The notes under the pieces were generated by a model, which did no database searches, was not told where the DNA came from, and worked only from the letters and a program-made list of their open reading frames with translations. The translations under genes and the position numbers were made by a program. A stretch of 64,000 nt of DNA from Polychytrium aggregatum (Eukaryota; Chytridiomycota; Chytridiomycetes; Polychytriales), in contig NW_026516208.1 of the NCBI RefSeq assembly GCF_025602895.1, positions 186,001 to 250,000 on the forward strand, written 5' to 3'. Positions 55,601 through 60,048 of this stretch are shown piece by piece; position 1 is the first letter of the stretch, and each line of letters opens with the position of its first letter.

Positions 55601-55649
55601 GCATTGTGCCCCCCCTCCCACTCATAGAAGGGATTACAGGCAATCCAAT

Positions 55650-55662
55650 AAAAAACGGGACA
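55650..55662 (+). repeat. left terminal inverted repeat of the transposon
   Basis: Thirteen bases, AAAAAACGGGACA, matching the complement of 59347-59359. Just outside lies a small inverted repeat GGATT (55631-55635)/AATCC (55642-55646). AATAAA spans the border (55647-55652). Confidence 0.7.
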
Positions 55663-55720
55663 CCCAGGGTTTTGACCATTCATCGAATATTTTGTTACCC
55701 AATGTTATCGCGCGCTGGCC

Positions 55721-56649
55721 ATGACCATTCGCCACACATCCGACTTTCGCACCGCCGCATTGCGATGCTACGCCCTCATCCATAGCCTGCGTAAGGTCGC
55801 CTCCATATTCAGTGTATCCAAGAGCACCATCCATCGATGGCACCGAGGATGCAAGCTGGATGACCCATCCCGGGTCCCAGCTCGCAGATCCACTTCGAGC
55901 AGGCATGTCCAGTCATTCGCACCCTGATTGAACAGGACCCGTTCCAGACTGGTCCTGTGTTGCGATGCAAGCTCGAGTCCATCCTCCAGAGGAAAGTATC
56001 ACTCTCACTCTGCCACACTGCCATCCAGCGAGCAGGTCTCTCACACAAGAGGGCAACACACCTCTACAAGTCCAAGCGACTAGATGAGCGAGTGGCACAG
56101 TTCAGGGACCAGGCCCGCTCCATTGACCCACGACGGCTCGTTTTTGTCGACGAGACAGGGATCAGGAAATCCATTTTCCCTCTCTACGGATACTCACCGA
56201 AGGGTGCTCCGCTTCGCCAGCGCAATCACATGAAACACAAGTCTGTCTCGGCTGCATTTGCCATCAACCACTCTGGTGTGCTGCATCGCATGTACATCCC
56301 CACATCATTCAAGACACACTCGATGGTCGAGTTCTTTGAGCGAGCGACCTTCCCAGACGACTCTGTGATTGTGATGGACAATGTCAGCATGCACAAGACA
56401 AGGACTGTCCTGGACTGCATCGAGCGCCGAGGATGGTCAGTGATCTTCACCCCACCTGCCTCGCCCGACTTCAATCCCATCGAGAACTTCTTTGGGATTG
56501 TGAAGCATCAGTACAGGAAGGCAGCAGCGCTGAATGCCTCCGAGGGGTTCAGGATCGGGATGGTGACCCTGTTTGAGTCCGCCGTGCGGAGGGTGCTTCC
56601 AGATGTCTTCCCACGGCTGATTGAGCGAGCGATGCGCTTCTGGGGTTGA
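55721..56649 (+). pseudogene. IS630/Tc1-mariner DD34E transposase, split by a -1 frame change
   Basis: Reading starts at 55721 with a helix-turn-helix domain: a KVASIFSVSKSTIHRWHR helix pair, typical of this superfamily. That frame stops at 55927. The catalytic part continues in the -1 frame from about 55865 to a TGA at 56649. Residues of the DDE triad are all present: LVFVDETG (first Asp), VIVMDN (second Asp) and SPDFNPIENFF (Glu), with 34 residues between the last two, that is DD34E. A PxYGYSPKG segment is also typical. No canonical slippery heptamer or plausible intron is seen between 55862 and 55920. The likeliest reading is an inactivating indel, but some bacterial IS630 elements express their transposase by programmed frameshift, so function is not excluded. 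Confidence 0.8.
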
Positions 56650-56766
56650 GTTCCCTCCAATCAAGCCGCCGTTTTCGCGTTCACATCCCTGGCTTGAACC
56701 TCTCGGCGATTTTTGAACAGGGTCACTTCCCCAACCAGCCCGCGCAGACGGGTTCCTGCTCTCGGG

Positions 56767-56772
56767 TATAAA
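56767..56772 (+). promoter_or_regulatory. TATA-like box upstream of Fanzor
   Basis: TATAAA lies 130 bp before the Fanzor ATG and 118 bp after the transposase stop, suggesting that the nuclease has its own promoter. Confidence 0.4.
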
Positions 56773-56901
56773 TGCCACACCTTCGTCCTGCTGCTTTCTT
56801 CCCTCATCTCGCCTTGATCTGATCATCGCGCTATTGTACGATAAAAAAAAGTCTCTGCTCTGACCAGTACCACTGGCAGGCATCCAGCATCCTCTGTCCC
56901 C

Positions 56902-59274
56902 ATGCCTCCGAAGCGCAAGGGTGCCGGTGATGGCCAGCCTCGGCCACCCAGGCCCAAGAAAGCCAAGTCACAGTCGGAGCCTGTCTCTGGTTCGTATTCT
57001 GACCCCACGCATGCTTGGTCGTCTGTTGCTCCGTCGCTCACCACCACTGCTTCTGCAGATCCAATGGATGTCGATCCCACCGAGCCTGGTCCATCTACTT
57101 CCTCGAGTACCGGCAAGCGATGTCGCCAGTGCGATGGCACCGATCACGAACGCTGCAACACTAGCAAGTGTCCAAAATATCACCCCCTCAAGAGTTCTGT
57201 CCTCCCACTCGTGGATGGAAGGTCATCCGCCCCTCAGTTCAGCTGCTTCAAGCAGACGATGGATGGCTGTTGTCTCAATCCCGCTCTCCGCGACAAGATC
57301 CAGGCCACCGTCGAGGCCATGACCCAGATCCAGTTCGAGGCATCCAGGCTGCTCAACCTGCACATCCTCCGGTGCATCGAGCAGGATCTTCCCGTCCCCG
57401 TCATCTCCAAGTCCACCCCTGCTTTCATCCGCCAATGCTTCAAGATCGTCCAGGACGGTGCCCTCTCCCCGACCGGGGACAACGAGAAATACAACGAGCA
57501 TCTGGTCGCTTCCTTTCGCGACTACCAGACCACTCGGCACGCAGACCTGCCTCCGGCCCCTCGTCTGCCTGATGGTGCACACAGTCAGCTTCTCACACTG
57601 GCTGTCAATGCCTATGCCACCAACTGCACCACCCACCTCGACCTGGCCTACTGGCGACTCCTTCGCCGCTTCTGCGCTGCCGTCTTCCCAGCCAACAAGC
57701 ATAAGCACGAAGCCATCGAGGCCTGTCTCGAGCTCTTCGAGAAACCAGGGCAGACTCCACCCAAGGCCGATCTCGAGTTCATCTATCCAGACTTTGGCCA
57801 CGTCCTGGACGAGTTTCGGTACAGCAGCGACCAGGACCGCTTCCGGGCCCTCCACCGCCTCTCACACCATGTGGGAATCCTCGCCCGGGACAAGATGGTC
57901 GACAATGTCCACAAGTGGATCGACTGTGACATGCCCGCCCTCCGAGTCACCGAGCTGCAGCGCCAGGCCAAGCTGGACAGGCTCACTACCCAAGGCATTC
58001 CCTCCGACGACAAGAGGTTCGCCACGGCCAAGTCTGAGCTCGGCACCACCAAGGCCAAGATCAACAAGCTGGCCGCCAGGATCAACTGGGCCCTCAAGCA
58101 GCTCGCTCTTGACACTCCTCCGTCCGTGTGCACGATGGTCCCTCTGTGCACAGCCAAGGCCAAGTATGTCAAGATCGACACCGTCACTCTCTGGAATCTC
58201 CTTGGTCCAAAGAAACGCCTTGGACTCACCAGGGACAAGCTCAAGGAACAAGGTGATGACGGTGTCAACAACCAGGATCGTCTCTGGCGCAGTTGCTTCA
58301 AGCTGCGTAGTTCCCTCTTCCGTGACCGGGATATCAATCACAAGCTGTTCAACTACGAGATCAGCACCGATGGCATTGGATGCACCATCGGTCTCGTCAA
58401 GTTTGTGCGTCGAACCGATCGCACCGAGACCATCGAGCCTCCTCCGACCGCCGAGCAGCGCATCCAGGCCCACATCGGAGACCCAGACCCCAACCGCACC
58501 ACTTGGATTGGAATCGACCCAGGCGTCGGCTCCATCTTCACGGCGGTCATCCAAGCACCGGGCCAACAAGACGAGGTGGTCTCATTCTCCAATGGCCACT
58601 ACCAGCACATGTGTGGCCATACGTCCAACACCAAGTGGCACAACACCATGAAGTATCGACTCGATATCGAGACCTGGATGTCGACCACCCCCTCGCCCAA
58701 GGTGTCGTCCTCGGAGGCCTTCAAGGTCCATCTCACCCATGTCCTGCAACCGGAGCTTCGGGTGCAGCTCGACTTCCACCTTGGCAAGAAGGCCCGTCAC
58801 CATCGCTTCATGGGCCACAAGAGGCGCCAAGTGGCCGTCGACAGGATGTGCAAGGCCGTCCTGAAGCACGCCCCGATACGGACCGATGTGGTGATCGCCT
58901 TTGGCAATGCATCATGGCGACAGGGCAAGGGCTATGCATCCAGCCCTCGGAGGCAGCGGTTTGCTCGGTACTTTGAGCAATTCGAGCACCACCGACGCCG
59001 TCCCAATCACCATCATGGAAGTGTCAAGGTGGCCTCGACGAACGAGTTCAACACCTCACAGGTGTGCTCCAAGTGCCTGGAGCCAGTTCGGTTGGAAGGA
59101 CTCGATGCGCCCAGTGTTGCGAATTCCCACTTTGTCAGGAGCTGCAAGAATCCCAGCTGCCGGACAGTGTGGAATCGCGACGTCAATGCGGCGCGCAACA
59201 TGATCATAGTATGCAAGTCGATTGTGGAGATCGGAGAGCGACCGGTGGTCTTCACTCGGAGGCTACCAAAGTGA
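56902..59274 (+). CDS. Fanzor (eukaryotic TnpB-like RNA-guided endonuclease)
   Basis: An intact, intronless 790-residue ORF. Basic nuclear-localisation-like clusters (PPKRK, RPKKAK) open it. Residues 74-90 form a zinc-knuckle-like CRQC-x4-H-x2-C-x4-C. About 400 residues of helical REC/WED-like region follow. The split RuvC nuclease begins at GIDPGVGSIFTAV (Asp539). RuvC-II reads VVIAFGNASW, with Asn669 where TnpB has the catalytic Glu. The alternative Glu715 lies 46 residues on, in TNEFNTSQVCSKC, and RuvC-III is NRDVNAARN (Asp760). Zinc-finger cysteines are 722, 725, 748 and 753. This rearranged site is a known Fanzor feature. Fanzors cut DNA directed by an omega-RNA encoded at the transposon's 3' end. 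All key residues are present, so activity is plausible, though untested. Confidence 0.93.
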   Translation: MPPKRKGAGDGQPRPPRPKKAKSQSEPVSGSYSDPTHAWSSVAPSLTTTASADPMDVDPTEPGPSTSSSTGKRCRQCDGTDHERCNTSKCPKYHPLKSSVLPLVDGRSSAPQFSCFKQTMDGCCLNPALRDKIQATVEAMTQIQFEASRLLNLHILRCIEQDLPVPVISKSTPAFIRQCFKIVQDGALSPTGDNEKYNEHLVASFRDYQTTRHADLPPAPRLPDGAHSQLLTLAVNAYATNCTTHLDLAYWRLLRRFCAAVFPANKHKHEAIEACLELFEKPGQTPPKADLEFIYPDFGHVLDEFRYSSDQDRFRALHRLSHHVGILARDKMVDNVHKWIDCDMPALRVTELQRQAKLDRLTTQGIPSDDKRFATAKSELGTTKAKINKLAARINWALKQLALDTPPSVCTMVPLCTAKAKYVKIDTVTLWNLLGPKKRLGLTRDKLKEQGDDGVNNQDRLWRSCFKLRSSLFRDRDINHKLFNYEISTDGIGCTIGLVKFVRRTDRTETIEPPPTAEQRIQAHIGDPDPNRTTWIGIDPGVGSIFTAVIQAPGQQDEVVSFSNGHYQHMCGHTSNTKWHNTMKYRLDIETWMSTTPSPKVSSSEAFKVHLTHVLQPELRVQLDFHLGKKARHHRFMGHKRRQVAVDRMCKAVLKHAPIRTDVVIAFGNASWRQGKGYASSPRRQRFARYFEQFEHHRRRPNHHHGSVKVASTNEFNTSQVCSKCLEPVRLEGLDAPSVANSHFVRSCKNPSCRTVWNRDVNAARNMIIVCKSIVEIGERPVVFTRRLPK

Positions 59275-59360
59275 TCTGTTTTATTTCTTGTGGCTTTGCT
59301 TGACGCAAGCACAGCACATACTACATGTTCATGGAAACGGCTATATTGTCCCGTTTTTTT
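59200..59360 (+). ncRNA. candidate omega (guide) RNA scaffold of the Fanzor
   Basis: Inferred from position. In TnpB and Fanzor systems the omega-RNA covers the end of the nuclease ORF through the right transposon end, and the guide is the flanking DNA just beyond. Here the ORF stops at 59274 and the right repeat ends near 59360. The gap contains a perfect hairpin, GCTTG-ACG-CAAGC (59298-59310). The 5' border is unknown. The resident guide would start at about 59361. Confidence 0.4.
59347..59360 (-). repeat. right terminal inverted repeat of the transposon
   Basis: TGTCCCGTTTTTTT, complementary to the left repeat over 13 bases. AATAAA follows at 59364-59369. Confidence 0.7.
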
Positions 59361-59361
59361 C

Positions 59362-60048
59362 TGAATAAAGTGTAGCGCAGATCGATATCAATTTGGAACT
59401 GTACAGGACCTACAATGGCCAAAAATTGACTGGAATGCCGAACGAGACTGCCGTCGTCCGAGATGCGAATGCAAGCTGGATGTCAGTGCCAAACGAGTGA
59501 CCCATTAGTGGCGAGCACCACTCATGTGATTATCGAACTCGGTCACGGAATACAGTATCCGACTGTCTCGACTCTGGCTATTGCCTTTTTTTCTCTATCT
59601 CTAGAGGAGCTGTATTACTCGGAGAAATGACCAAGACAAAATGGAGGGGATGTCTACTGTGTTAGGGTGTCTGGGGTCGCCTTGAGCCGCGACGCCAAAG
59701 TGCGATGCATGTGCGAACGAGGATGCGTGTGTATGTATGGGAAGCATGGCTGTGCGAGAGGCGAGGAGGCAATGTAAATCGGAATCATCGAGAATGATCG
59801 TGGCGCGGGGGAAGTAGGGGCGAGAAAGGATGAGGGGAGGGCTAAGGGAGACTGGTGTGTAGTATAACAGTTCGATGTGCTTGCATTCATGTTTTCAGAG
59901 TGTCAGAGGTGCAAGGTCGTTTGGCGAAGAAGGGAAAGCAACGAATGAGCGAGAGCCATCCATGGGCGGCTTGCGGAATATTGATATGAACTTGGCAAGC
60001 CGAAGCCTACTATCCGTGAAGGCAGTCTTGGTTTGCCTCCGCAGCCGT
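59362..60048. other. flank between transposon and bZIP gene
   Basis: Convergent intergenic DNA without a recognisable gene. It starts with a possible polyadenylation signal (59364-59369), which could serve transcripts leaving the transposon. Confidence 0.45.

Follow-up and report, generated by a model that had tools for sequence, protein, structure and literature searches.

Mariner elements that carry a Fanzor1 protein, PUl-1 and PGv-1, were reported in 2013 (Bao and Jurka 2013, PMC3627910). A second point of comparison is Spu-1 of Spizellomyces punctatus with its nuclease SpuFz1 (Saito 2023, PMC10432273); both papers are cited here from the available parts of their text. The element studied here occupies positions 55637-59372 (3736 bp) of a 64,000-nucleotide stretch of Polychytrium aggregatum DNA (contig NW_026516208.1, positions 186,001 to 250,000; the whole stretch is called the window below). 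The source assembly, 64.7 Mb in 418 contigs, was judged to be eukaryotic from its gene content. On balance, we consider it probable that the element belongs to a large IS630/Tc1/mariner family whose transposase pastes it into TA and whose Fanzor1-type nuclease, equipped with a guide from the right end, would cut empty TTA sites, with repair restoring the element.

The window element resembles PUl-1 and PGv-1, as far as these are described in the available text (PMC3627910), in that a Mariner transposase and a Fanzor (Fanzor1 in those elements, probably so here) form one unit with inverted repeats and TA duplications; the likeness is one between descriptions. PGv-1 is described as single-copy and as having an extra endonuclease, whereas the present family has hundreds of copies, many of them open, and no third gene was recognised in its list of open reading frames (ORFs); a one-sided flank motif is also revealed here. 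With Spu-1, as described in PMC10432273 and PMC3627910, the element shares a nuclease of the Fanzor1 type (a likely one here), inverted repeats, which in Spu-1 measure about 30 bp, putative TA duplications, conserved bases before the left end and abundant ghosts, i.e., short protein-less copies that keep the right end (with its RNA in Spu-1). In contrast, no transposase was found within the Spu-1 repeats, the target-adjacent motif (TAM) of SpuFz1 is CATA and not the TTA predicted here, and there is no full-length sequence match between the two nucleases.

The sequence-only reading of this locus, made before the present analysis, had taken it for a possibly undescribed system. That may hold for the family, of which no description was found in the literature on Fanzor elements (searched by title and start of abstract, with partial coverage), but not for the kind of element, which has been known since 2013; what is notable here is the copy number, the open transposases and the readable flank motif.

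The nuclease motif and zinc ribbon of the window element are also found in the TnpB elements of IS200/IS605 and IS607. These follow the same right-end guide RNA logic as is proposed here but use an HUH or serine transposase in place of DD34E, and TnpB, with an NCBIfam model of 389 positions, is shorter than the 790-aa Fanzor.

Ends, copies and genes of the element

Alignment of copies, the procedure that the sequence-only reading had suggested for fixing the ends and the target duplication, placed the termini at 55637 (CAGGCAATCC...) and 59372 (...AATAAAGTG), with a TA on both sides (55635-55636 and 59373-59374; all parts of the element described below are on the forward strand). The terminal inverted repeats (55637-55662 and 59347-59372), common to hundreds of copies, are 26 bp long and imperfect: 19 of 26 positions match, the inner 13 bp are identical, and all seven mismatches sit in the outer half. 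The right repeat contains an AATAAA hexamer at 59364-59369. A 13-bp inverted repeat had initially been regarded as the ends. The repeat is real (its 12-mer core, at 55651-55662 and 59347-59358, gave two matches against a shuffle mean of 0.11) but makes up merely the inner half of the 26-bp repeats, and it was rejected as the termini since copies align past it, through 55640 and 59370. Among unique flanks, TA was present on the left in 40/41 and on the right in 40/42. Five copies (at loci L019, L027, L032, L036 and L045) have 5-bp TANNN repeats: they are among the 10 copies whose outermost three left bases are not CAG, and in these five the three bases recur after the right TA. For a sister element in L029, the repeat is apparently 11 bp long. 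An Rfam scan of the window returned nothing at gathering scores.

Genome-wide pattern counts allowing up to 3 mismatches gave at least 276 right ends and at least 396 left ends, with 0 matches for reversed-pattern controls; these counts include copies on apparent second haplotype contigs. The sequence-only reading had made its case depend on a second copy with the same ends, and hundreds share them. A DNA search (39 scored of 1298 candidates) yielded 39 long copies including that of the window, 31 of them contiguous and 8 with internal gaps; the other 38 are 95-97% identical to the window copy in their main piece. In a search with the Fanzor protein, 56 of 57 scored matches (of 1267 candidates) were full length, with 94-100% identity, and 43 of these 56 had no internal stop; one of the 56 starts at residue 2, and the 57th match is split in two pieces. 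Several copies at different sites (L040, L041, L042, L044 and L056) share a deletion of about 239 bp near the left end, through which part of the transposase N-terminus is lost. Close relatives were sought in IMG/VR, where 2 and 54 pattern matches were obtained and none was confirmed; a search of phage records gave no match.

The Fanzor ORF (56902-59274, 790 aa) matches the PF07282 zinc-ribbon family with 36.3 bits (curated cut-off 26.3), the match being confined to residues 708-767. The published Fanzor/TnpB motif, D-X(125,275)-[TS][TS]-XX-C4-X(5,50)-RD (PMC3627910, available part), is complete in the form D-X178-TS-XX-C4-X5-RD, comprising D539, T718-S719, the four cysteines of a C4 zinc ribbon (Cys722, Cys725, Cys748 and Cys753) and R759-D760. 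Thus, the RuvC and zinc-finger residues expected by the sequence-only reading are all in place: Asp539 (58516-58518), Glu715 (59044-59046), which precedes the zinc ribbon, Asp760 (59179-59181) and the C4 cluster. Because the motif is full, assignment of the ORF to the Fanzor/TnpB group is firm as judged from the protein sequence; membership in Fanzor1 rather than Fanzor2 is likely; the protein has 790 aa and its gene is linked to a DDE transposase. The C-terminal tail, RPxVFxR..P, aligned to that of SpuFz1 below significance (E 0.33 with the C-terminal 260 aa). With a three-row profile SpuFz1 reached E 0.068, while a TnpB-like entry, L79, was best at 0.015, and LaTranC and another transposase entry also scored higher. 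With the whole protein sequence, the best relative in the PDB had an E of 0.89, and an AlphaFold2 model built from the single sequence, with no alignment, had a mean predicted local distance difference test score of 39.4, too low for the model to be of use. A TATAAAT box noticed by eye at 56767-56773, upstream of the ORF, may be part of a promoter of its own.

Upstream of the Fanzor gene and in the same orientation lies the transposase region (55721-56649), with a DDE_3 match of 88.2 bits in Pfam. In the window copy, 4 bp that are present in 34/39 copies are missing after 55892. This shifts the reading frame, so an intact transposase was rejected for this copy, and the DDE part is open (55957-56649). 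An open transposase of 310 aa is present in 20/39 long copies. In one of them (L011) the DD34E triad consists of D145, D221 and E256, with 75 and 34 residues between, and the NCBIfam IS630 model scores 119.1 bits (cut-off 100). By these matches, the transposase is of the IS630/Tc1/mariner DD34E type. The proposed pair of co-oriented DD34E transposase and 790-residue Fanzor is thus present with the Fanzor open and the transposase frameshifted. The broader view of a Fanzor within a DNA transposon is borne out by the open Fanzor with its complete motif, the transposase upstream and the hundreds of copies with shared ends.

Of the 39 long copies, 28 have an open Fanzor, 37 have no indel in it and 14 have both genes open; two of these 14 (L011 and L021) occupy one site. 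The ratio of nonsynonymous to synonymous polymorphism (pN/pS) over the 39 copies came to 0.31 in Fanzor and 0.21 in the transposase; the Fanzor region read in shifted frames, as a control, gave 1.34 and 1.41. These values indicate purifying selection on both genes, which supports the interpretation given at the outset. Alternatively, Fanzor may not be a working nuclease but may be carried along as a passenger or regulate transposition, with the transposase alone driving the family. The slightly stronger constraint on the transposase, the spread of ghosts that lack Fanzor and the short extent of the Pfam match would agree with this, but the retention of catalytic residues in the window copy and the number of open and indel-free Fanzor genes (per-copy states may be blurred by assembly) would not, and we regard this explanation as very unlikely.

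One-sided flank motif and right-end module

A T stood before the left TA at 38/40 unique TA-flanked left ends, the background for TAs in neighbouring sequence being 12.9% (p=9e-32). On the right side, an A in the mirror position behind TA occurred in 7/40 (p=0.25). These flank counts omit duplicate-site copies (L015, L021 and L025 on both sides, L031 and L035 on the left, L047 on the right, and the ghost L049). Genome-wide, the exact left end was preceded by TTA in 172 cases and by TA with another base before it in 6 (172/178; copies on second contigs included). In the window the TTA is at 55634-55636. In Spu-1, CA is conserved before the left repeat and, together with TA, makes up the measured SpuFz1 TAM, CATA (PMC10432273, available part). 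Since the conserved flank bases and TA constitute the TAM in that system, we predict by analogy that the TAM here is 5'-TTA.

The T could instead reflect the target preference of the transposase itself, made one-sided by unequal ends, with Fanzor cutting elsewhere or using another TAM. The two repeats do differ, at seven positions confined to their outer half, and TTA also precedes each of the 7 unique short copies that lack Fanzor. However, target preferences of Tc1/mariner transposases are roughly symmetric, unlike the situation here, where the right side shows no preference for the mirror A (7/40). Moreover, the ghosts carry the same right-end module as the long copies and for this reason cannot separate a transposase cause from a Fanzor cause. 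We consider an origin of the motif in the transposase unlikely, though less so than the absence of a working nuclease.

Eight short copies were read, seven of 283-385 bp and one of 1114 bp, which keeps more of the element. The seven ghosts, two of which (L049 and L052) occupy one site on two contigs, retain 97-207 nt of the left end and, in 7/7 cases, 165-214 nt of the right end (165 nt in four, 214 nt in three). The shortest retained right end corresponds to a 3' module at 59208-59372 that overlaps the final 67 nt of the Fanzor ORF. Its noncoding part, 59275-59372, was identical in all 40 places scored (the best 40 of 449 candidates), and its diversity over the 39 long copies was 0.021, compared with 0.042 in the 5' untranslated region and 0.043 between the genes. 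Synonymous diversity in Fanzor is 0.10 at codons 701-725 and drops to 0.009-0.035 across the last 65 codons. This drop fits a right-end RNA overlapping the gene, a weak argument because codons 1-75 and certain internal blocks show low diversity as well.

The SpuFz1 RNA consists of 75 nt of the right end and runs 14-15 nt into the flank (PMC10432273, available part). By analogy, the noncoding right end with its TA (59275-59374) is a candidate omega-RNA scaffold, and the guide RNA is predicted to end in the right flank, with the guide starting at 59375 and extending to 59390 if its length is as in SpuFz1. Single-strand folds of three right-end stretches gave z values of -1.60, -1.81 and -1.98, compared with +0.53 for a left-end control; the value of -1.98 belongs to the candidate scaffold, for which hairpins are predicted. 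A hairpin near 59291-59313 was also predicted on an alignment of divergent right ends; such ends occur in flanking sequence at L014, L019 and L049/L052.

Near the left edge of the window, 943-1031 is a degraded relative of the right end (46.5 bits, E 3.6e-13) and probably represents an old ghost that belonged to a sister family. A remnant of a sister Fanzor (65-66% identity over the last 129 residues) with a related right end lies at 5320-5843 of L013, about 83 bp to the right of the family copy, and also in L025.

The one-sided TTA and the protein-less ghosts lend indirect support to a guide RNA used together with a TAM. In the mechanism that we favour, the transposase, placed in its family by the matches above, would cut the element out and paste it into TA. 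Transcription of the right end would yield a guide RNA that extends at its 3' end into the flank. The Fanzor-RNA complex would recognise 5'-TTA beside the sequence to the right of the insertion, an arrangement intact solely in empty sites, and cut these, a step suggested by the presence of TTA on one side only and by the example of Spu-1. With an occupied copy as the template, repair would restore or spread the element and offset losses through excision, and the ghosts, which keep the right-end module, may be served in trans.

The window copy has an open Fanzor and a frameshifted transposase and would therefore need transposase in trans. Several observations weigh against this mechanism. The preference for TTA may stem from the transposase, given that the short copies without Fanzor share it. 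The predicted RNA structure is weak, with z values of about -1.6 to -2.0, and in 6 sequences 1 of 18 pairs was compensatory, with an unfavourable covariation term. Finally, retention of 165-214 nt may also be explained by a need of mariner ends for internal binding sites.

A second nuclease type is present in the genome as open frames of 477 aa at L002, L003, L006 and L007, which by eye combine an IS607 serine recombinase-like N-terminal part with a TnpB/Fanzor2-like protein. L002/L003 and L006/L007 form head-to-head pairs about 5 kb apart.

Occupied sites and same-site copies

Empty alleles were searched for with 17 of 33 unique junctions (16 whole, and L019 with 60 of 90 left bases), 40 of 646 and 40 of 108 candidates being scored. 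Among these scored candidates, a contiguous empty site was found for none of the 17 insertions. For 10/17 (L011, L012, L013, L014, L017, L019, L020, L022, L024 and L026), a second contig carries both flanks at about the spacing of the element; one flank alone was found elsewhere for L010, L023 and L028, and no second contig for L016, L018 and L027. For the window copy, contig C14 carries both flanks 32 kb apart. There, the left flank is followed by a copy from which about 239 bp near its left end are missing and which passes into foreign sequence after about 190 nt; the right flank borders on an element end. This arrangement fits a single interrupted element as well as two separate ones. Among the sequences compared, the sole match suggesting a paralogous empty site was rejected as trivial, being that of the L029 junction to its own locus, where a related element adjoins. 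The lack of empty sites among the scored candidates is compatible with homing. Most flanks of the contig pairs differ by just 0-0.4%, so that the insertions may simply predate the pairs, and the support that occupied second contigs give to homing is weak for this reason.

Copies at the same site often differ inside much more than their flanks do, in L012/L015 and L013/L025 as strongly as unrelated copies; L011/L021 is a counter-example. Divergence was 3.50% for L012/L015, 3.21% for L013/L025 and 1.07% for L011/L021, with an overall mean of 3.87%, while on three of the four sides of L012/L015 and L013/L025 the flanks are 99.6-99.9% identical; the exception is the right side of L013/L025 (95.6% over the first 610 bp), which includes repeated sequence. 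The window copy differs from its C14 counterpart at 18 sites in the last 500 nt of the element; the flanks show 1 difference each, over about 1 kb on the left and about 0.7 kb on the right. At some sites the spacing also varies between contigs, being for example about 3735 versus 3465 for L026 and about 3738 versus 3614 for L024. Three pairs, L010/L031, L010/L047 and L023/L035, have one flank in common and not the other, which reflects either ectopic exchange or misjoined contigs.

The assembler may have created such differences on its path through a repeat that occurs hundreds of times. We find this rather probable; it is compatible with the homing mechanism and leaves the family real, while statements on open frames and frameshifts in individual copies would be unreliable. 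At distances above about 50 bp, variants are no more linked than in permuted data (L015, L021, L025, L031, L035 and L047 omitted), and, in spite of their flanks, the number of minor alleles in common is at the level of chance for both L012/L015 and L013/L025 (6 versus 7.1 and 8 versus 7.3, respectively). On the other hand, L011/L021 share 32 minor alleles, with 9.6 expected, and L023/L035 differ at just 4 sites in the first 1 kb. The ghosts L049/L052, 384 bp long and thus short enough to assemble, still differ inside while 300 bp of flank are identical, and mixing by majority vote should yield copies that are alike, not mosaics.

The other explanation is that the family is a freely recombining population in which RNA-guided or excision breaks at the hundreds of element sites are repaired by switching among ectopic copies, leaving same-site copies unrelated inside and nearly identical in their flanks. 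In that case, a DNA transposon with a nuclease on board would reshuffle the genes of its own family. We consider this improbable, and an assembly mosaic likelier than ectopic conversion as the source of same-site differences; if so, the per-copy counts of open frames are approximate.

The family bears on the question why eukaryotic transposons carry RNA-guided nucleases. Since both genes are open in one unit in 14/39 copies, and since the family provides natural insertions by the hundred together with their own set of guides and a TAM prediction, the cut-and-copy idea becomes testable for a cut-and-paste transposon, and the TTA prediction is specific and easily falsified.

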